Shown in pieces: positions 8,496-18,144 of a DNA stretch of 64,000 bases; position 1 is the first letter of the stretch, and each line of letters starts with the position of its first letter. Made by a program: the position numbers and the translations under genes. The notes beneath the pieces were generated by a model. It did not search any database. It saw only the letters and a list, made by a program, of their open reading frames with translations, and was not told where the DNA came from. This DNA is from Variovorax sp. CF079 (GTDB lineage: Bacteria > Pseudomonadota > Gammaproteobacteria > Burkholderiales > Burkholderiaceae_C). The DNA lies in contig NZ_FMZU01000007.1 of NCBI RefSeq assembly GCF_900101545.1, forward strand, positions 186,001 through 250,000. The letters run 5' to 3'.

Positions 8496-10304
8496 ATGAA
8501 CTACCCAGGCACCCAGAACGCCGTCCAGGCGATCCCGCTCGCGACCCCCGATCAACTGCGCGAGCGCATCCGCCGCAAGAGCAAGCTCAAGGGCCGGCAG
8601 CCCGAGACCGAAGCGCTGGCGGAGGTGCGCGCACTCATCGGCCCGCGGCCCGATGACGGCTGGCGGCGCGACCTGCTGATCGAGCAGCTGCACCTGCTCA
8701 ACGATGCGCACGGCGGGCTGCACGACCGCCACCTGGTGGCGCTGGCCTCGCTCATCAACGTTCCGATGGCCGAGGTCTACGAGGTTGCGACCTTCTATCA
8801 CCACTTCGAAGTGCTGCGCGGCGACGAGCAGGCACCCGGGCTCACGATCCGCGTGTGCGATGGCCTGGCCTGCGAGCTGGCCGGCGCACAGGACCTGCTC
8901 GCGCGGCTGCCTGCGCTGCTGGGCGCGGCGGGCCGCGACGACGTGCGCGTGATCTCCGCGCCCTGCATCGGCCGCTGCGAGCAGGCGCCGGCCGCGGCGG
9001 TGCACCAGCGCGCCGTGCCGCTGGCGACCACCGACCGGCTGCTGCAGGCGCTGGACGCCAGGCCGTCAGTGCCCGAGACCTTCAACTTCGTGCCGGCGGC
9101 GCTGGCCGAGAAAAGCGTCTCGCCGCCGCCCGAAGGGATCGCGGAGATCCCCGCCTTCACGGACTACGCCACCTACCGCGCCAACGGCGGCTATGCGCTC
9201 GCGGCCGCGCTGGTCAACGGCGAAGAGGACGCCGAGGCCGTGCTCCGCGCGATGGAAGACTCGGGCCTGCGCGGCCTCGGCGGCGCGGGCTTTCCGGCCG
9301 GGCGCAAGTGGCGCATCGTGCGCGAGCAGCCGGCGCCGAAACTCATGGCGGTGAACATCGACGAGGGCGAGCCCGGTACCTTCAAGGACCGTACCTACCT
9401 CGAGCGCGATCCGCATCGCTTCCTCGAAGGGCTGCTGGTGGCCGCGCAGGTCGTGGGCACCGAGGCCTGCTACATCTACCTGCGCGACGAATACCACGAC
9501 TGCCGCCGGCTGCTCGAGGCCGAGCTGGCCAAGCTCAAGGCCGACCCGCCCTGCACGCTGCCGCGCATCGAGCTGCGGCGCGGCGCCGGCGCCTACATCT
9601 GCGGCGAGGAGTCCGCGATGATCGAGAGCATCGAAGGCAAGCGCGGTGAGCCGCGCATGCGCCCGCCCTATATCGCGCAGGTCGGCCTGTTCGGCCGGCC
9701 GACGCTGGAGCACAACTTCGAGACGCTCTACTGGGTGCGCGACATCGTCGAGAAAGGCCCGCAGTGGTTCAGCGGCTTCGGCCGCCACGGGCGCAAGGGG
9801 CTGCGCAGCTTCAGCGTGAGCGGGCGCGTCAAGAACCCCGGCGTCAAGCTCGCACCGGCGGGCATCACGGTGCAGGAGCTGATCGACGAATACTGCGGTG
9901 GCATGCTGCACGGCCACACGCTTTACGGCTATCTGCCCGGCGGCGCCTCGGGCGGCATCCTGCCGGCGCGCATGAACGACATCCCGCTGGATTTCGACAC
10001 GCTGCAGCCTTACGGCTGCTTCATCGGCTCGGCCGCCGTGATGGTGCTGAGCCAGCACGATCGCGCGCGCGATGCGGCGCTGAACATGATGCGCTTCTTC
10101 GAACACGAGAGCTGCGGCCAGTGCACGCCCTGCCGCGTCGGCACCGCCAAGGCGGCGGCGCTGATGCAGGCGCCGGTGTGGGACAACGCCACGCTGGAAG
10201 ACCTCGCGCAGGTCATGGGAGATGCATCGATCTGCGGGCTGGGGCAGGCCGCGCCCAATCCGATCCGCTGCATCCAGAAGTACTTCCCCGAGGAGATCGC
10301 GTGA
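8496..10304 (+). CDS. NAD-dependent formate dehydrogenase, fused gamma-beta subunit (FdsG-FdsB / NuoE-NuoF type)
   Basis: 602-aa diaphorase subunit that passes electrons from formate oxidation to NAD+ in the cytoplasm. Residues about 1-185 are a NuoE/FdsG thioredoxin-like 2Fe-2S domain (CDGLACELAG near 127 and CIGRCEQAP near 165 supply the four Cys). Residues about 210-600 are NuoF/FdsB: NADH/FMN glycine loop GLRGLGGAGFPAGRKW near 260, FMN-binding GAGAYICGEESA near 365, SLBB region near 460, and the 4Fe-4S motif SCGQCTPCR near 545 with a distal Cys in ICGLG. In Cupriavidus these are two genes, so here they are fused. The stop overlaps the fdsA start (GTGA). Confidence 0.93.
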   Translation: MNYPGTQNAVQAIPLATPDQLRERIRRKSKLKGRQPETEALAEVRALIGPRPDDGWRRDLLIEQLHLLNDAHGGLHDRHLVALASLINVPMAEVYEVATFYHHFEVLRGDEQAPGLTIRVCDGLACELAGAQDLLARLPALLGAAGRDDVRVISAPCIGRCEQAPAAAVHQRAVPLATTDRLLQALDARPSVPETFNFVPAALAEKSVSPPPEGIAEIPAFTDYATYRANGGYALAAALVNGEEDAEAVLRAMEDSGLRGLGGAGFPAGRKWRIVREQPAPKLMAVNIDEGEPGTFKDRTYLERDPHRFLEGLLVAAQVVGTEACYIYLRDEYHDCRRLLEAELAKLKADPPCTLPRIELRRGAGAYICGEESAMIESIEGKRGEPRMRPPYIAQVGLFGRPTLEHNFETLYWVRDIVEKGPQWFSGFGRHGRKGLRSFSVSGRVKNPGVKLAPAGITVQELIDEYCGGMLHGHTLYGYLPGGASGGILPARMNDIPLDFDTLQPYGCFIGSAAVMVLSQHDRARDAALNMMRFFEHESCGQCTPCRVGTAKAAALMQAPVWDNATLEDLAQVMGDASICGLGQAAPNPIRCIQKYFPEEIA

Positions 10305-13249
10305 ACGCTCCCACACGACTTGCCGAAGTGATTCCGCAGACCATCGAGTTCAAGCTCGACGGCCGCGCCGTCCAGGCCTTCGAAGGCGAAACCATTCTTC
10401 AGGCCGCGCAGCGCCACGGCGTCGATATCCCGCACCTTTGCTACAAGGAGGGCCTGCGCCCCGACGGCAACTGCCGCGCCTGCGTGGTCGAGGTGAAGGG
10501 CGAGCGCACGCTCGCGCCGAGCTGCTGCCGCAATGCGACGGCGGGCATGGAGGTGCAGGCCAGCAGCGAGCGGGCGCTGAAGAGCCAGAAGATGGTGGTC
10601 GAGATGCTCTTGTCCGATATGCCGGACCGCGGGTACAAGTGGAACGACGAGGCGGTGGCGAAGGCTGCGAGCCCCCACCCCATCCCTCCCCCTCTGGGGG
10701 AGGGCGGGGGTGGGGGCTTCCCCGTCGGCCAGCACGGCGAGCTCAGCGAATGGGCCGAACGCCTCGGAATCTCCGTCCGCCCCGAGCTCAAGGCCCTGCG
10801 CCGCGAGCAACCCAAGGCCGATGTCTCGCACCCCGCGATGGCTGTCAACCTCGACGCCTGCATCCAGTGCAACCGTTGCGTGCGCGCCTGCCGCGAGGAG
10901 CAGGTCAACGACGTGATCGGCTACGCGATGCGCGGCGGGGATTCGAAGATCGTGTTCGACCTCGACGACCCGATGGGCGACAGCACCTGCGTGGCCTGCG
11001 GCGAATGCGTGCAGGCCTGCCCGACGGGTGCCTTGATGCCCAAGAGCCAGATCGGCTCGCAGCAGGTCGACCGCAAGGTCGATTCGGTCTGCCCCTTCTG
11101 CGGCGTGGGTTGCCTGATCACCTACAACGTCAAGGACGAGAAGATCGTCAGCGTCGACGGCCGCGACGGCCCGGCCAACCACAGCCGGCTCTGCGTCAAG
11201 GGCCGCTTCGGCTTCGACTATGCGCACCATCCGCAGCGCCTGACCAAGCCGCTGATCCGCAAGCCCGGCGTGCCCAAGGACTTCAACGACGCACCGCGGC
11301 CCGGCGACTGGCACGACGCCTTCCGCGAGGCCAGCTGGGAAGAGGCGCTCGCGCTCACCGCGGGCAAGCTCAAGAGCCTGCGCGACACGCACGGCAAGAA
11401 GGCGCTGGCCGGCTTCGGCTCGGCCAAGGGCAGCAACGAAGAGGCCTACCTGTTCCAGAAGCTGGTGCGCACCGGCTTCGGCAGCAACAACGTCGACCAT
11501 TGCACGCGGCTGTGCCACGCCTCCAGCGTGGCGGCGCTGCTCGAAGGCGTGGGTTCGGGCGCGGTGAGCAACCAGGTCAACGACGTGGAGCATGCGGACC
11601 TGATCTTCATCATCGGCTCCAACCCGACCGCCAACCATCCGGTGGCCGCCACCTGGATGAAGAACGCCGCCAAGCGCGGCGCGAAGATCGTGCTGGCCGA
11701 CCCGCGCGTCACCGACATCGGCCGGCACGCCTGGCGCACGCTGCAGTTCAAGGCCGACACCGACGTCGCGATGCTCAATGCGCTGATCCACGCGGTGATC
11801 GACGAGGGCCTGGTCGACGAGGCCTTCGTCCGCGACCGCGCCAGCAACTTCGAGGCGCTGCGCGAGAACGTCAAGGGCTACAGCCCCGAGGCGATGGCGC
11901 CGATCTGCGGCATTCCGGCCGAGACGCTGCGCGAAGTGGCGCGGGCCTTCGCCAAGGCCAAGGGCGCGATGGTGTTGTGGGGCATGGGCATCAGCCAGCA
12001 CGTGCACGGCACCGACAACGCGCGCTGCCTGATCGCGCTGGTCACGGTCACCGGCCAGATCGGCAAGCCCGGCTCGGGCCTGCATCCGCTGCGCGGGCAG
12101 AACAACGTGCAGGGCGCGAGCGATGCGGGGCTGATCCCGATGATGTTCCCCAACTACCAGCGCGTCGACAACCCGGGCGTGCACGCTTGGTTCGAGAACT
12201 TCTGGGGCATGCCGCTCGACGAGAAGCCGGGCTACACGGTGGTCGAGATCATGCACAAGGCGCTGGCGCCGGACAGCGATCCGCACAAGATCCGCGGCAT
12301 GTACATCATGGGCGAGAACCCCGCGATGAGCGACCCGGACCTCAACCATGCGCGCCATGCGCTCGCGAGCCTGGAACACCTGGTGGTGCAGGACATCTTC
12401 ATGACCGAGACCGCGTGGCTGGCCGACGTGGTGCTGCCGGCCACTGCCTGGCCCGAGAAGACCGGCACCGTGAGCAACACCGATCGCATGGTGCAGCTTG
12501 GCAAGAAGGCGCTCAACCCGCCCGGCGATGCGAAGCCCGATCTCTGGATCATCCAGCAGATCGCAAAACGCATGGGCTTGGCCTGGAACTACGAGGGCGA
12601 GGAGTCCGGCGTGGCCGCCGTCTACGAAGAGATGCGCCAGGCCATGCATGCGGCCATCAGTGGCATCACCTGGGAGCGGCTGCAGCGCGAATCCAGCGTG
12701 ACCTACCCCTGCCTGGACGCGGACGATCCGGGCCAGCCGACTGTCTTCATCGACGACTTCCCGACCGCCGACGGCCGCGTGAAGCTGGTGCCGGCCGACA
12801 TCATCCCGGCCGACGAGCGGCCCGATGCCAAGTACCCCTTCGTGCTGATCACCGGGCGCCAACTCGAGCACTGGCACACCGGCAGCATGACGCGCCGCGC
12901 CACCGTGCTCGATGCGCTGGAGCCGATGGCCACGGCGTCGATGAACCAGAGCGACCTGGAGACCCTGGGCCTCCAGGCGGGCGACGTGGTCACGATCCGC
13001 TCGCGCCGCGGCGAGGTGGCGATCCACGTGCGCCGCGACGACGGAACGCCGAACGGCGCGGTGTTCGTGCCCTTCGCCTACTACGAGGCGGCAGCCAACC
13101 TGATGACCAATGCGGCGCTCGATCCCATGGGCAAGATCCCGGAGTTCAAGTACTGCGCGGTGCAGGTGCTGCGCGGCGGCGTGCCGGTGGCCGCCGCGGG
13201 CTATGGAACCGGGGCGGTGGCAACGGTGGAAACGGCGACGGCGCACTGA
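10301..13249 (+). CDS. fdsA: NAD-dependent formate dehydrogenase, catalytic alpha subunit (Cys-type, W/Mo-bis-PGD)
   Basis: 982-aa catalytic subunit oxidising formate to CO2. The N-terminal NuoG-like part holds a 2Fe-2S site (CYKEGLRPDGNCRAC near residue 47), a His/Cys cluster region, and two ferredoxin-type 4Fe-4S motifs (CIQCNRCVRAC near 187, CVACGECVQAC near 231). A further 4Fe-4S (CPFCGVGC near 265) precedes the molybdopterin domain. The metal ligand is Cys405 (RLCHAS); it is a TGC codon, not selenocysteine. The C-terminal dinucleotide-binding domain begins near 855. The start is GTG at 10301. Residues about 125-139 are encoded by an inserted GC-rich palindrome. No separate FdsD gene is seen; FdhD is encoded at 26646. 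Confidence 0.94.
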   Translation: MNAPTRLAEVIPQTIEFKLDGRAVQAFEGETILQAAQRHGVDIPHLCYKEGLRPDGNCRACVVEVKGERTLAPSCCRNATAGMEVQASSERALKSQKMVVEMLLSDMPDRGYKWNDEAVAKAASPHPIPPPLGEGGGGGFPVGQHGELSEWAERLGISVRPELKALRREQPKADVSHPAMAVNLDACIQCNRCVRACREEQVNDVIGYAMRGGDSKIVFDLDDPMGDSTCVACGECVQACPTGALMPKSQIGSQQVDRKVDSVCPFCGVGCLITYNVKDEKIVSVDGRDGPANHSRLCVKGRFGFDYAHHPQRLTKPLIRKPGVPKDFNDAPRPGDWHDAFREASWEEALALTAGKLKSLRDTHGKKALAGFGSAKGSNEEAYLFQKLVRTGFGSNNVDHCTRLCHASSVAALLEGVGSGAVSNQVNDVEHADLIFIIGSNPTANHPVAATWMKNAAKRGAKIVLADPRVTDIGRHAWRTLQFKADTDVAMLNALIHAVIDEGLVDEAFVRDRASNFEALRENVKGYSPEAMAPICGIPAETLREVARAFAKAKGAMVLWGMGISQHVHGTDNARCLIALVTVTGQIGKPGSGLHPLRGQNNVQGASDAGLIPMMFPNYQRVDNPGVHAWFENFWGMPLDEKPGYTVVEIMHKALAPDSDPHKIRGMYIMGENPAMSDPDLNHARHALASLEHLVVQDIFMTETAWLADVVLPATAWPEKTGTVSNTDRMVQLGKKALNPPGDAKPDLWIIQQIAKRMGLAWNYEGEESGVAAVYEEMRQAMHAAISGITWERLQRESSVTYPCLDADDPGQPTVFIDDFPTADGRVKLVPADIIPADERPDAKYPFVLITGRQLEHWHTGSMTRRATVLDALEPMATASMNQSDLETLGLQAGDVVTIRSRRGEVAIHVRRDDGTPNGAVFVPFAYYEAAANLMTNAALDPMGKIPEFKYCAVQVLRGGVPVAAAGYGTGAVATVETATAH
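10671..10717. repeat. Palindromic repeat element inserted in frame inside fdsA
   Basis: 47-bp hairpin: outer arms GCCCCCACCCC (10671-10681) and GGGGTGGGGGC (10707-10717), inner arms CCCTCCCCC (10684-10692) and GGGGGAGGG (10696-10704), and a 3-nt loop. It is translated as the low-complexity stretch SPHPIPPPLGEGGGGG, between the 2Fe-2S domain and the ferredoxin motifs. The inner arm type recurs at 17673 in the DUF3306 gene. It resembles a REP/small palindromic repeat family common in Comamonadaceae. Confidence 0.8.
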
Positions 13250-13374
13250 AAAGCGGCATCGTGATGTGACATTTTTGGCATGGCGAGCGTCTTTCTGACG
13301 CCGGACGTCGCACCGCGGGCACGCATGCCAGGCGCGGCCCTGCGCGAGGACCTTGGCTCGAGTGACTGGCATAT

Positions 13375-15639
13375 ATGTTGCTGGCCGTAACTTATCCAGC
13401 ACATAACAACGCCAAGTCAAACGTGGACCAGCCAAAAAACGACAACGACATTTCATTGGATCGCCGCCTCTTCTGCGTGGGCGCAGTGAGCTTCGCAGCC
13501 CTGGGAACCGCGGCCTGCGGAGACGGTGGGAGCAGCGGCTTCGGCAGCGCCGGCGCGCTCGGCACCACGCAACAGAATGCGGCGACTTCGACGGCCACGT
13601 CCACCGAGGTCGCTGCGACCGAGCCTGTCACCAACTCCACCTTGACGTCGCAAGCGCGAAAGTTCACGCATCCCGGTCTGCTGCACACCGAGGCCGATTT
13701 CGAGCGCATGCGAACCAAGATCGCGGCCGGCGCCCAGCCCTGGGTCGACGGCTGGAACGCGCTCACCTCCAGCAGCCGTGCCCAGCTCGGCCGCGCGCCC
13801 GTGCCGCTGGCAACGGTGGTGCGCGGCGGCGACGGCGAGAACCACCGCACCATGGTCGAGGACATGGCGCGCGCCTACCAGTTCGCGCTGCGTTGGAAGG
13901 TCTCCGGCAACACCGCCTACGCGGACCTGGCGGTGCAATACCTCGACGCGTGGTCGTCGACGATGACGGCACTCAACGGCAACTCCGACCGCTTCCTGGC
14001 CGCCGGCATCTACGGCTACCAATGGGCCAATGCGGCCGAGATGATGCGCAGCTATCCGGGCTGGTCGTCCGAAGGCGTCGCGCGCTTCCAGAAGCTGCTG
14101 CTGGAGGTGTTCTATCCGCTCAGCCACAGTTTCCTGATCAAGCACAACGACGCGAACATCACCAACTACTGGGCCAACTGGGATCTGTGCGCCATCTGCG
14201 CCATCCTGGCCATCGGCGTCTTCTGCGATCGCACCGACCTCTATGACGAGGCCATCGCCTACTACAAGACCGGCCGCGGCAACGGGGCGGCGGCACACAA
14301 CGTCTACATGCTCCACCCCGGCTACCTGGGGCAATGGCAGGAAAGCGGCCGGGACCAGGGACACGCCACGCTCGGCATGGCGCTGACCGGCCTGCTGTGC
14401 GAAATGGCCTGGAGCCAGGGCGAGGACCTCTACGGCTACGGCAACAACCGCTTCCTCGCCGCCGCCGAGTATGTGGCCATGTCGAACCTGCAGGACGGCA
14501 ACGGCCAGTACTACTCGCCGCCGTTCTCGACCTACGTCAACAGGCAGGGGACTTTCACCGTGGTGTCGACGGCCGGGCAGCCCAACCTGCGCCCGTGCTG
14601 GGAGTCGATCTACAACCACTACGTCAATCGCAAGGGGCTTGCGGCGCCCTGGGTGGCGACCATCGCCGCCCAGATACGCCCCGAGCGCAGCGAATGGGGC
14701 GGCGACCAGCCGAGCTTCGGCACGCTGACCTACAGCCGCGATCCCGTAGCCGCGGGCACGCCGCCGAGCGGCCTCACGGCCTACGTCACCGCCAACCAGG
14801 TACTGCTGTCGTGGTGGGGCAGTGCAGGCGCGACGAGCTACAAGGTCAAGCGCGGCCCTTCGGCGAACGGGCCTTTCGCCACCGTCGCCAGCGTCACCGA
14901 CCCTCGCACCTACACCGACACGCCGGGCAACGGCGTCTGGCACTACGTCGTCACCGCGGTGAGCGCAAGCGGCGAGAGCAGCGTCTCCAACGTGGCGCGC
15001 GTGGCCTTGCCCAGCGAGCTGCGCGCGCAACTGCCGCTGGATGCGGCCAGCGGAACCACGGCCGCCGATGGCAGCGGCAACGGCCAAAACGGCACGCTGC
15101 AGGGCGGCGCCAGCTGGGGCGAAGGCCGCAGCGGCGGCCGCGCGCTGGCGCTCGACGGCAGCAGCGGCCACCTCGCGCTGCCCACCGGTGTGCTCTCCAG
15201 CCTGGGCGACTTCACGATCGCGCTGTGGGTGTACTGGAATGCCGCCGTCACCAACACACGCGTGTTCGACTTCGGCTCCAGCGACATCGCCTACCTCGCA
15301 CTGCTGCCGCGCGATGCCGGCGGCTCGATGCGCTTCACGGTGACCGGCACCACCTGGTACGGCGAGCAGAGCATCGTGGCGAGCGCGTTGCCCACCGGCC
15401 GCTGGGTGCACCTGGCGGTCACCCTGTCGGGCACCACCGGCACGCTGTACGTTGACGGCGTGGCCGCCGGCAGCAACAACGCGATTGCGCTCGCGCCCTT
15501 CCAGCTCGGCGACACCACCCAGAACTGGCTCGGCCGCTCGCAGTACCCGGCCGACCCTTGCTTCAACGGGCGCATGCAGGACCTTCGTATCTACAGCGGC
15601 GCGTTGAGCGCAGCCGAGATCGCGGCGCTCGCGGCCTGA
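13375..15639 (+). CDS. Exported alginate-lyase-family protein with FN3 and LamG-type domains
   Basis: 754-aa predicted exported polysaccharide-active protein. A Tat-like leader (LDRRLFCVGAVSF, ending AACGD, possibly lipid-anchored) precedes a Thr/Ala-rich linker. An alpha/alpha-toroid alginate-lyase-like domain spans about 95-450, with the family-style NNHGTWYD motif replaced by a looser N/W-rich stretch (HNDANITNYWANWD) near 260. An FN3 module follows at about 463-545, then a concanavalin-like LamG domain at about 550-754 (FTIALWVYWN, WVHLAVTL, DLRIYSGALS). Carbohydrate binding is likely, activity on alginate is uncertain. The ATG at 13375 lacks a clear ribosome binding site; GTG at 13423 is an alternative. 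It separates the two formate dehydrogenase loci. Confidence 0.78.
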   Translation: MLLAVTYPAHNNAKSNVDQPKNDNDISLDRRLFCVGAVSFAALGTAACGDGGSSGFGSAGALGTTQQNAATSTATSTEVAATEPVTNSTLTSQARKFTHPGLLHTEADFERMRTKIAAGAQPWVDGWNALTSSSRAQLGRAPVPLATVVRGGDGENHRTMVEDMARAYQFALRWKVSGNTAYADLAVQYLDAWSSTMTALNGNSDRFLAAGIYGYQWANAAEMMRSYPGWSSEGVARFQKLLLEVFYPLSHSFLIKHNDANITNYWANWDLCAICAILAIGVFCDRTDLYDEAIAYYKTGRGNGAAAHNVYMLHPGYLGQWQESGRDQGHATLGMALTGLLCEMAWSQGEDLYGYGNNRFLAAAEYVAMSNLQDGNGQYYSPPFSTYVNRQGTFTVVSTAGQPNLRPCWESIYNHYVNRKGLAAPWVATIAAQIRPERSEWGGDQPSFGTLTYSRDPVAAGTPPSGLTAYVTANQVLLSWWGSAGATSYKVKRGPSANGPFATVASVTDPRTYTDTPGNGVWHYVVTAVSASGESSVSNVARVALPSELRAQLPLDAASGTTAADGSGNGQNGTLQGGASWGEGRSGGRALALDGSSGHLALPTGVLSSLGDFTIALWVYWNAAVTNTRVFDFGSSDIAYLALLPRDAGGSMRFTVTGTTWYGEQSIVASALPTGRWVHLAVTLSGTTGTLYVDGVAAGSNNAIALAPFQLGDTTQNWLGRSQYPADPCFNGRMQDLRIYSGALSAAEIAALAA

Positions 15640-15668
15640 AGCGTCGGACGACGCCTGCCGTTGATCTA

Positions 15669-15678
15669 GGGTTAACCC
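15669..15678. promoter_or_regulatory. Palindrome GGGTTAACCC, candidate operator
   Basis: Perfect 10-bp palindrome 30 bp after the alginate-lyase-like gene and 70 bp before the LivK-like gene, flanked by near-symmetric CTA and TAG. An identical copy occurs at 57014-57023, at the start of a LysR gene. It may be an operator, or a coincidence. Confidence 0.3.
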
Positions 15679-15703
15679 CTAGGCCCCATCGATTTTAAGT
15701 TAC

Positions 15704-15745
15704 AGTAAGTGACTACTCGTTACATGAGCGCCTGACTCACTTACT
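15704..15745. promoter_or_regulatory. Inverted repeat just upstream of the LivK-like gene
   Basis: Perfect 9-bp arms AGTAAGTGA (15704-15712) and TCACTTACT (15737-15745) separated by 24 bp; the right arm ends 2 bp before the ATG at 15748. The region is AT-rich for this genome. It could be an operator or an mRNA hairpin that hides the start codon; no T tract follows, so a terminator is unlikely. Confidence 0.45.
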
Positions 15746-15747
15746 CG

Positions 15748-16884
15748 ATGGAAAAACCGATTCAACGCCGGCACGCGATCCAACGCCTTGCCGCCGCGAG
15801 CGCCGCGCTGGCACTTCCGGCTTGGGCCCAACCGGCGCGCATCGTGCTCGGGCAATCGGCCGCATTCAGCGGCCCGGCCGAGCAGCTGGGCATTCAGATG
15901 AACAAGGGCGCGCGCATCTTCTTCGATGCGCTCAATGCCTCGGGCGGCATCAACGGCCGCAGCGTCGAACTGCGCACGCTCGATGACGGCTACGAGCCCG
16001 AGCGCTGCAAGGCGAACACCGACAAGCTCATCAAGGACGAGGTCTTCGCGCTCTTCGGCTACGTCGGCACGCCCACCTGCCTGGCGGCGATGCCGCTGGT
16101 CGATGCGGCGAAGATTCCGTTCTTCGGCCCGTTCACCGGTGCCGAGGCCCTGCGCGAGCCGTTCCGCAAGACGGTGTTCCATGTCCGTGCCTCTTACTAC
16201 GACGAGACCGCGCTGATCGTGAAGCAGCTCACCTCGCTGGGCCTCAGGAAGATCGCGGTGTTCCACCAGAACGATGCCTACGGCCAGGCCGGGCTGGAGG
16301 GCGTGAAGCGTGCGCTCAAGCCGCTCGCCCTGGACCCGGTGGCCGTGGGCAAGGTCGAGCGCAATTCGGTGAACGTCGCGCAGGCGGTAAAAGACATCAC
16401 TGCCGCCGGCCCCACGGCCGTGGTGCAGATCGGCGCCTACAAGGCCTGCGCGGCCTTCATCCGCGAAGCGCGCAAGGCCGGCTACGGCGGCACCTTCTTC
16501 AACGTGTCCTTCGTCGGCACCGAGGCGCTGGGCGACGAACTCGGCAAGGACGCCCGCGGCATCATGGTCAGCCAGGTGATGCCCTCTCCGTTCTCGACCA
16601 ACACGCCGATCTCGCGCGAATACCTGGAGGCCGCGCGCAAGGCCGGCCCTGAGGCCAAGCCCAACTATTCGAGCATGGAAGGCTACGTGGCCGCCAAGGT
16701 GCTGGCCGAGGGACTTCGCCGCGCGGGCCGCGCGCCGACGCGCGATTCGCTGGTCGCCGGCCTGGAGTCGATCCAGAACGCCGACTTCGGCGGCTTTCGC
16801 GTCGACTTCAGCGCCCGCAATCACGCGGCATCGAGCTACGTCGATCTGTCGATGCTGACGCAGGACGGCAAGGTTCGCCTTTGA
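15748..16884 (+). CDS. ABC transporter substrate-binding protein, LivK-like (branched-chain amino acid type)
   Basis: 378-aa type I periplasmic binding protein (Peripla_BP_6). A signal peptide (RRHAIQRLAAASAALALP, cleavage near AWAQP) precedes the typical VLGQSAAFSGPAEQLG strand. Family landmarks are INGRSVELRTLDDGYEP near residue 72, FALFGYVGTPT near 100 and VAVFHQNDAYGQAG near 165. In Burkholderiales many LivK-like proteins bind amino acids, aromatic acids or other carboxylates. No permease or ATPase gene is next to it, so it is an orphan component here. The preceding 108 bp hold two symmetric sequences that may control it. Confidence 0.88.
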   Translation: MEKPIQRRHAIQRLAAASAALALPAWAQPARIVLGQSAAFSGPAEQLGIQMNKGARIFFDALNASGGINGRSVELRTLDDGYEPERCKANTDKLIKDEVFALFGYVGTPTCLAAMPLVDAAKIPFFGPFTGAEALREPFRKTVFHVRASYYDETALIVKQLTSLGLRKIAVFHQNDAYGQAGLEGVKRALKPLALDPVAVGKVERNSVNVAQAVKDITAAGPTAVVQIGAYKACAAFIREARKAGYGGTFFNVSFVGTEALGDELGKDARGIMVSQVMPSPFSTNTPISREYLEAARKAGPEAKPNYSSMEGYVAAKVLAEGLRRAGRAPTRDSLVAGLESIQNADFGGFRVDFSARNHAASSYVDLSMLTQDGKVRL

Positions 16885-16958
16885 GCTTGGGAAGCGGCTG
16901 CGCCGGCGCGAAACCCCGCTTGCATGTCGCCGGCGGCGCATCGGCTATCGTCCGCCGC

Positions 16959-17543
16959 ATGGTCCCATCCGAAACCCCATCCGAGGGCGCACACCCTTCT
17001 CTCGCCGTGGCGGTCGTGATGCGGCGCGAGCGGCTCCACGGCCCGTCGAGCCATTGGCAGCCCTGGCGCTGGACGCTCGACGAGGTGGTGCCCGACGAGC
17101 CGGGCTTCGGCGACGCGCCGCGGCTCTTGCGCGACGACGAGGGCGCGCAGCGCTGGCTGCACCCGGGCTTCCAGGTCGAATTGTTTCGCGATGAAGCAGA
17201 GGGTTACCAGCTCAACGCAACAACGCCCGCGCCCTGCTGGTTCGTGATGTGGCGCATGGAAGAAGAGGCGACGCTGGCGCCGGAGCCGATTGCGCGGCCG
17301 CTGGTGGTGACGTTGAGCTACAACGAAGCGGGCCGCTGGCTCGATGCGCAGGAGAATGTCGAGCAGGTGCCGGCACCCGAAGAAGTGGTGGCGTGGCTGC
17401 GCGCCTTCGTCGAAGAACACTATGTGCTCGAGCCCAAGCGCCGCAAGCGGCCGGAGAGCTTCAAGCCGCTGGTCGACCGCTTCGGCAATGCGGCCAGCGT
17501 GTCGACCGAGAAGAAGCGCGGCCGGGGAGCGGGCGATGTCTGA
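16959..17543 (+). CDS. DUF3305 domain-containing protein (formate dehydrogenase accessory)
   Basis: 194-aa cytoplasmic protein of the DUF3305 family, which in proteobacteria almost always sits beside DUF3306 and membrane-bound formate dehydrogenase genes. Conserved features seen are VMRRERLHGPSSHWQPWRW near residue 20, GFQVELFRDEAEGYQLN near 75 and WFVMWRMEE near 98. The ATG at 16959 (MVPSETPSEG) is chosen; an upstream ATG at 16881 would add 26 residues that do not fit the family. It is the first gene of a long rightward operon and overlaps the next gene by 8 bp. Its molecular role is not established. Confidence 0.82.
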   Translation: MVPSETPSEGAHPSLAVAVVMRRERLHGPSSHWQPWRWTLDEVVPDEPGFGDAPRLLRDDEGAQRWLHPGFQVELFRDEAEGYQLNATTPAPCWFVMWRMEEEATLAPEPIARPLVVTLSYNEAGRWLDAQENVEQVPAPEEVVAWLRAFVEEHYVLEPKRRKRPESFKPLVDRFGNAASVSTEKKRGRGAGDV

Positions 17544-18144
17544 AGGCTTTTTCGATCGCTGGTCGCGGCGCAAGCAGCAGGTGCGGGAAGGGGAGGTGCC
17601 CGCGCCTGAGCCGGTGGCGGCCGTGCCGGTTGTGGCGCCTGCGCTTGTGGAGACGCCTGGCCCCCATCCCAACCTTCCCCCAGAGGGGGAAGGAGAGATG
17701 CCACCGCCGCCGCCTACGCTGGCTGATGCTGAAGCGCTCACCATCGACTCCGACTTCAAGCCCTTCGTCGCGAAGAACGTCGCGCCGGAGGTCAAGAACG
17801 CGGCCTTCAAGAAGCTGTTCGCCGATCCGCACTTCAATGTGATGGACGGGCTGGACACCTACATCGACGACTACTCCCAGTCGACCCCGGTGCCCGAGAG
17901 CGTGCTGCGCCAGATGGCGAGCGCGAAGTTCCTGAACCTGTTCGAGGAAGAAGAATCGAAAGAAGACCCTGAGGCCCACGCACCCCCGGACGTGGCACAG
18001 TCGATGCCTCCCGAGGAAGTTCCCAGCCCGCCGGTTGCCGATGCGCAACCCGCCAGCCAAGAGACCGATGACCACCACGCTGATCTGCGACTGCAACAAG
18101 ACGATGCCCCTCGAGCCGAAGACGCTCGGGACGGCACTGGCTGA
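17536..18144 (+). CDS. DUF3306 domain-containing protein with in-frame repeat insertion
   Basis: 202-aa protein starting MSEGFFDRWSRRKQQV, the characteristic opening of DUF3306, paired with DUF3305 in formate dehydrogenase operons. The conserved core is at about residues 70-140 (IDSDFKPFVAKNVAPEVKNA, DPHFNVMDGLDTYIDDYS). Residues about 40-57 (PGPHPNLPPEGEGEMPP) are encoded by a palindromic repeat and are not part of the family core. The Pro/Glu-rich tail from about 145 runs 77 bp into the next gene in another reading frame, a long overlap for this genome. The function is unknown. Confidence 0.78.
   Translation: MSEGFFDRWSRRKQQVREGEVPAPEPVAAVPVVAPALVETPGPHPNLPPEGEGEMPPPPPTLADAEALTIDSDFKPFVAKNVAPEVKNAAFKKLFADPHFNVMDGLDTYIDDYSQSTPVPESVLRQMASAKFLNLFEEEESKEDPEAHAPPDVAQSMPPEEVPSPPVADAQPASQETDDHHADLRLQQDDAPRAEDARDGTG
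17661..17693. repeat. Palindromic repeat element inserted in frame inside the DUF3306 gene
   Basis: Arms CCTTCCCCC (17673-17681) and GGGGGAAGG (17685-17693) with a 3-nt loop, preceded by CCCCCATCCC at 17661. Translated as PHPNLPPEGEGE, a peptide typical of palindromic repeats that enter coding regions. It is related in layout to the element at 10671-10717, so the same repeat family appears in both formate dehydrogenase loci. Confidence 0.75.

Follow-up and report, generated by a model that had tools for sequence, protein, structure and literature searches.

In the 64,000-nucleotide stretch of Variovorax DNA analysed here (the window, genome G000), the gene fdsA carries in frame a hairpin that, judged by its sequence, is a member of the dispersed BoxC/PIT/intrastrand triplex motif family. 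We consider it probable (about 0.8) that a motif of this family lodged in the linker of FdsA, was kept as a tolerated insertion and became two-armed through the collapse of an inverted pair. The features concerned are the following.

10301..13249, + strand: fdsA, encoding the 982-aa alpha subunit of formate dehydrogenase and containing the element (GTG start at 10301, stop at 13249; Pfam and PDB matches)
10671..10717, + strand: two-armed BoxC/triplex-type palindrome, in frame in fdsA (sequence, folding, shuffles, arm scoring)
10671..10681, + strand: left outer (third-strand) arm GCCCCCACCCC; arm and hairpin form one triplex motif on the minus strand
10684..10704, + strand: central hairpin CCCTCCCCC-TCT-GGGGGAGGG (sequence and genome pattern search)
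10707..10717, + strand: right outer (third-strand) arm GGGGTGGGGGC; arm and hairpin form one triplex motif on the plus strand
8496..10304, + strand: upstream ORF of 602 aa (ORF listing), a putative fdsG-fdsB fusion, named after the fds operon

The fdsA element and its host gene

The element reads GCCCCCACCCC-AT-CCCTCCCCC-TCT-GGGGGAGGG-CG-GGGGTGGGGGC. Compared with the reverse complement, 40 of its 47 positions are self-complementary, the others forming a 2x2 internal mismatch and a 3-nt loop, and with 10-nt flanks its RNA is predicted to fold at -54.3 kcal/mol (200 shuffles, -36.7 +/- 3.6; z -4.88). The first-pass annotation had placed a near-perfect 47-bp hairpin in frame between the 2Fe-2S and ferredoxin regions, and its coordinates proved exact. 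The core pattern occurs once in the window, where 0.01 occurrences are expected (it was present in 1 of 100 shuffles). An Rfam scan of window positions 10000-18000 gave two matches up to E 1, none reaching the gathering score; over the element itself the sole match was mir-593, at 24.6 bits against a gathering score of 100. In a repeat-family search of the window, the element was absent among the matches listed (20 of at least 60 families).

The encoded peptide, SPHPIPPPLGEGGGGGF, corresponds to FdsA residues 124-140, the final residue lying just outside the palindrome. According to Pfam, it follows the Fer2_4 match (2Fe-2S, residues 13-88) and precedes the 4Fe-4S matches (from residue 179), with the molybdopterin domains lying C-terminal to it. 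The closest named FdsA proteins are from Variovorax (86-88% identity). Between the DMP and HGEL stretches the linker measures 43 residues in the window strain and 24 in the nearest relative, G072, a difference of 19 residues that arises partly because the flanking linker differs too. The ORF is intact and fdsA stays under purifying selection, with dN/dS of about 0.07 (over the compared part, 0.066 against G072, 0.076 against G084 and 0.096 against G003).

The element is probably translated as a floppy linker. In AlphaFold models, residues 110-144 fall below pLDDT 50; residues 168-253, which include conserved cluster ligands, do so likewise, so that low pLDDT is weak evidence for floppiness. 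Residues 113-167 are unaligned in the top two PDB matches, and the alpha chain of 6tg9 aligns in one stretch across the linker.

A BoxC/triplex repeat family in the genome

The pattern CCCTCNCC-N2-10-GGNGAGGG was found at 27 places in the genome and its reversed control at none, which bears out the earlier suggestion that the element is a repeat-family insert. A looser pattern gave 17 places (control 5), of which nine were already among the 27, six of TTCCCCC type were added and two (C23:9504 and C28:150720) were excluded as unlike the other copies. Among the 33 hairpins thus classified, an outer G/C-rich arm lies on the left in 15, on the right in 14 and on neither side in 3; the fdsA element alone carries a third-strand arm on both sides. 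The palindromic element of the first-pass annotation was thereby confirmed as a hairpin and refined to a two-armed BoxC/triplex motif. The 21-mer core of the element has an identical copy at G000:C58:284847-284867.

The BoxC/PIT/TM form used for comparison was CCCTCNCCC-N3-6-GGGNGAGGG-N3-GGGNGAGGG, the consensus given by Holder et al. 2015 (PMC4666352) being CCCTCNCCCN3-6GGGNGAGGGN3GGGNGAGGG. On each strand, the fdsA element agrees with this E. coli consensus with one mismatch (third arm, A to G), and it can therefore be read as two opposite-strand motifs sharing one hairpin; judged by reading, each of the nine class II triads could form (eight C-G-G and one T-A-T). The family resembles BoxC/PIT/TM, as far as the latter is described there, in combining a hairpin with a third-strand arm, in being multi-copy and in having inverted pairs that decay to a hairpin. 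Unlike the BoxC/TM described there, the fdsA copy is two-armed, and a tag resembling TCTTGCT adjoins the hairpin when the other 32 copies are aligned in the same orientation; 16 of these 32 match CTTGCT with no more than one mismatch, a level reached by 2.4% of random windows. That paper credits the motif with no established function or mover.

In-frame copies in other genes

Eight of the 28 repeat sites in the genome lie in frame inside genes, as the genome-wide search for coding copies proposed in the first-pass annotation brought out. Six were called by a codon-usage test, a listing of long ORFs being of no use for this purpose in a genome so rich in GC; the DUF3306 and CobD sites were added on domain evidence (Pfam), the codon test having disagreed on the left side for DUF3306 and scored 0.0 on the right side for CobD. 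Two further sites were excluded, one upstream of the start of an ABC ATPase (L151) and one in the C-terminal tail of an ORF that has no Pfam match (L011). Besides fdsA, the in-frame copies are as follows.

Lipoyl-domain dihydrolipoyl dehydrogenase: copy between the lipoyl and FAD domains
UvrA: inverted motif pair (L156, G000:C36:70206-70271)
Penicillin-binding protein, first copy: between the transglycosylase and transpeptidase domains
Penicillin-binding protein, second copy: inside the transpeptidase match
Molybdenum-binding/cytochrome c protein: motif pair between domains
CobD: copy inside the Pfam match, in frame on domain evidence
17536..18144, + strand: DUF3306 gene hosting the second window copy, with the putative start at the methionine of MSEGFFDRW
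17660..17695, + strand: second window copy, one-armed, TTCCCCC subtype, in frame in DUF3306, encoding PHPNLPPEGEG

Several of these copies, not all, fall between domains. Peptides similar to that of the DUF3306 copy occur in G084, G072 and G003, so this copy looks older and inherited. The uvrA motif is paired also in G084 and G003 and missing in G072.

This in-frame habit is unlike that of E. coli MG1655, whose 23 BoxC/TM copies are reported in PMC4666352 to be always intergenic; a genus with the motif in frame in core enzymes is what gives the present case its significance. Palindromes read in frame are as such already known, as described in Di Nocera et al. 2013 (PMC3733652). Rickettsia palindromic elements (RPE) lie in frame in functional proteins; they belong to a different host and are likened to the present family by this habit. 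Intragenic GTAG/CGTC REPs are palindromes or dimers read in frame, also in uvrA; they are other sequence families, with RAYT mobilisation proposed for GTAG, and neither their tag (looked for beside the 32 aligned copies) nor a transposase link was found here. Coding copies of the BoxC/triplex family had no account among the open-access literature matches listed. What is added here is the in-frame habit in this family, the two-armed form and the serial states of one linker within one genus.

The fdsA linker in relatives

A close fdsA is present in 55 of 101 Variovorax genomes, and the linker was read in 54 of these (G060 was left out). A family hairpin occurs in six of the 54 by script recount (stem of at least 7 bp plus family sequence), five of which contain the strict core pattern.

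G000 (window): two-armed hairpin
G003: a lone degenerate hairpin with a 7-bp stem, which the strict core pattern misses
G008: single hairpin
G068: inverted pair
G092: an intact hairpin and, by eye, two further imperfect units
G080: hairpin at a contig end, counted as present

Apparent remnants were seen by eye in three linkers (G002, G054 and G079), and the other 45 have neither hairpin nor remnant, if the C- or G-rich bits in G084 and G043, perhaps old remnants, are counted as absence. A tree built from the flanking DNA places G072 (96% DNA identity) and G084 closest to the window; both lack the fdsA element, and their genomes contain 26 and 54 core copies, respectively. The next branch is G003, whose degenerate single motif is of another subtype. 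Outside the genus, a Comamonadaceae bin (L050) carries an inverted pair at the same place. On this tree, with G080 scored as present, hairpin presence changes at least six times, or five without L050. The linker itself has changed repeatedly within the genus.

The earlier question of whether the insert is strain-specific has a divided answer: it is missing in the nearest relatives, but five other congeneric linkers carry hairpin versions of their own. That it is non-native was upheld, the peptide being missing from G072, G084 and the more distant FdsA aligned, where the linker is missing altogether; conservation in distant genera, which would speak for native sequence, was not seen. Some nearer-genus FdsA have long linkers of unrelated Ala/Gly/Ser-rich sequence, so the linker is variable even without the motif. 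By eye, the flanks of filled and empty linkers differ too much to call a target-site duplication of the kind expected of a MITE, and among the linkers compared no clean empty site was found; the flanking linker also changes.

In G080, contig C18 ends in a palindrome that folds back on itself at the fdsA hairpin (L140), and this piece of fdsA also stands at either end of contig C10; the pattern has the look of a misassembly at the element.

Origin and persistence of the two-armed form

We propose that a BoxC/PIT/triplex motif lodged in the FdsA linker between the 2Fe-2S and 4Fe-4S domains. Loss of the DNA between two inverted motifs, for example by replication slippage, would then have left a single hairpin flanked by both arms, and the ribosome would read the result as a Pro/Gly-rich flexible linker for which no further function is needed. 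The element looks like a tolerated insertion and not like native sequence, because in close relatives it is either missing or replaced by a different version in the same position. Its persistence would be explained by a length and frame that leave the ORF open, together with a linker that appears to tolerate extra residues. For the two-armed form, collapse of an inverted pair is the most likely origin and the simplest reading, since such pairs occur in the fdsA linker (clean ones in L141 within the genus and in L050 outside it, an imperfect triple in L142) and since Holder et al. (PMC4666352) describe inverted pairs that lose parts of both copies while stem-loops remain.

That the two-armed form was inserted as such, as an element type of its own, is in our view unlikely. 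It would account for the fact that no exact precursor pair was found among the linkers compared and that collapse in silico reproduced no known copy: the collapsed L141 pair agrees over just 21 bases with L140, the only other two-armed candidate, which is a contig-end fold-back. Because the simulated collapse matched no known copy, we infer the collapse of a pair rather than observe it. Yet none of the other 32 classified hairpins is two-armed, so that a two-armed insertion would have no evident source copy. Far less probable is that the hairpin is kept for regulation, the mRNA hairpin or a G-quadruplex slowing ribosomes between the Fe-S domains, an idea raised in the first-pass annotation, and aiding co-translational folding. 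The very stable fold and the position between domains would suit such a role, as would the G-rich 3' half, whose predicted energy by itself is -34.5 kcal/mol when quadruplex rules are applied and -16.9 when they are not. However, the predicted optimum of the full element is a plain hairpin with or without these rules, close relatives with an intact and similarly selected fdsA lack the element or have it in rearranged form, and earlier BoxC/TM work, as summarised in PMC4666352, saw neither promoter nor terminator activity, nor any effect on RNA polymerase.

A further question is whether the linker received one ancient insertion, followed by turnover and many losses, or repeated insertions. The former, which is compatible with insertion and pair collapse as proposed above, has a real chance of being correct, though we lean slightly away from it. 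In its favour, a stretch resembling NDxGVxxAA precedes the element, as judged by eye, in seven of the nine linkers with hairpin or remnant (not in G003 and G079). Against it, tree neighbours differ in subtype, G068 being CCCCC-type and G092 CCCTC-type in a sister grouping that is itself weakly supported (74/81), and L050 branches outside the clade of the genus. With one linker occurring in paired, single, decayed and empty forms, motif gain and loss become traceable and the cost to the protein measurable.

The family across the genus

At least one core copy is present in 94 of the 101 Variovorax genomes (range 0-147); controls gave 0-2, so that a count of one or two in a genome does not exceed chance. 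Mixed empty, single and paired states are found in the linkers of the lipoyl-domain dehydrogenase (E3) and UvrA too. With rows missed by the motif search dropped from the counts, a hairpin was present in six of 12 E3 linkers read (all among the 14 best of 30 loci), in seven of 18 UvrA linkers read (of 30 loci) and, by regular expression, in two of nine DUF3306 linkers read (of 30 loci), three more of which are similar by peptide as judged by eye.

RAYT mobilisation was considered and found no support. A Y1_Tnp match occurs in 97 of the 101 genomes, including all seven without a core copy (G002, G018, G035, G039, G046, G086 and G093), and none of the 30 Y1 loci inspected, which are from genomes other than G000, has a core hairpin within about 1.5 kb. 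The Y1 transposase survey of the 101 genomes and these 30 loci yielded no mover for the family.

Dimer stretches were read from G068 (12) and four other genomes (6); having been chosen for holding pairs, they give no estimate of frequency. Many of the copies listed in G068 form inverted dimers, about 88 nt from core to core with the arms inside and with similar spacer ends; many of those at L297-L307 have TCTTGCT-like outer ends. Inverted dimers with near-constant spacing in some congeners, as in G068, are reminiscent of REPINs (PMC3116915); unlike REPINs, no RAYT association was found for the family here. Tentatively, and giving it somewhat less than an even chance, we suggest that BoxC/triplex motifs in this genus are a REPIN-like, dimer-forming family that repeatedly enters linkers of multi-domain enzymes and drives their evolution. 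If so, orthologous linkers (FdsA, lipoyl-domain dehydrogenase, UvrA and DUF3306) would evolve by motif gain, collapse and decay, and the motifs would keep supplying proteins with new flexible sequence.

In L308, one of the dimer stretches read, the arms lie outside. G002 and G054 keep their apparent fdsA linker remnants with just 0 and 2 core copies in the genome, respectively.
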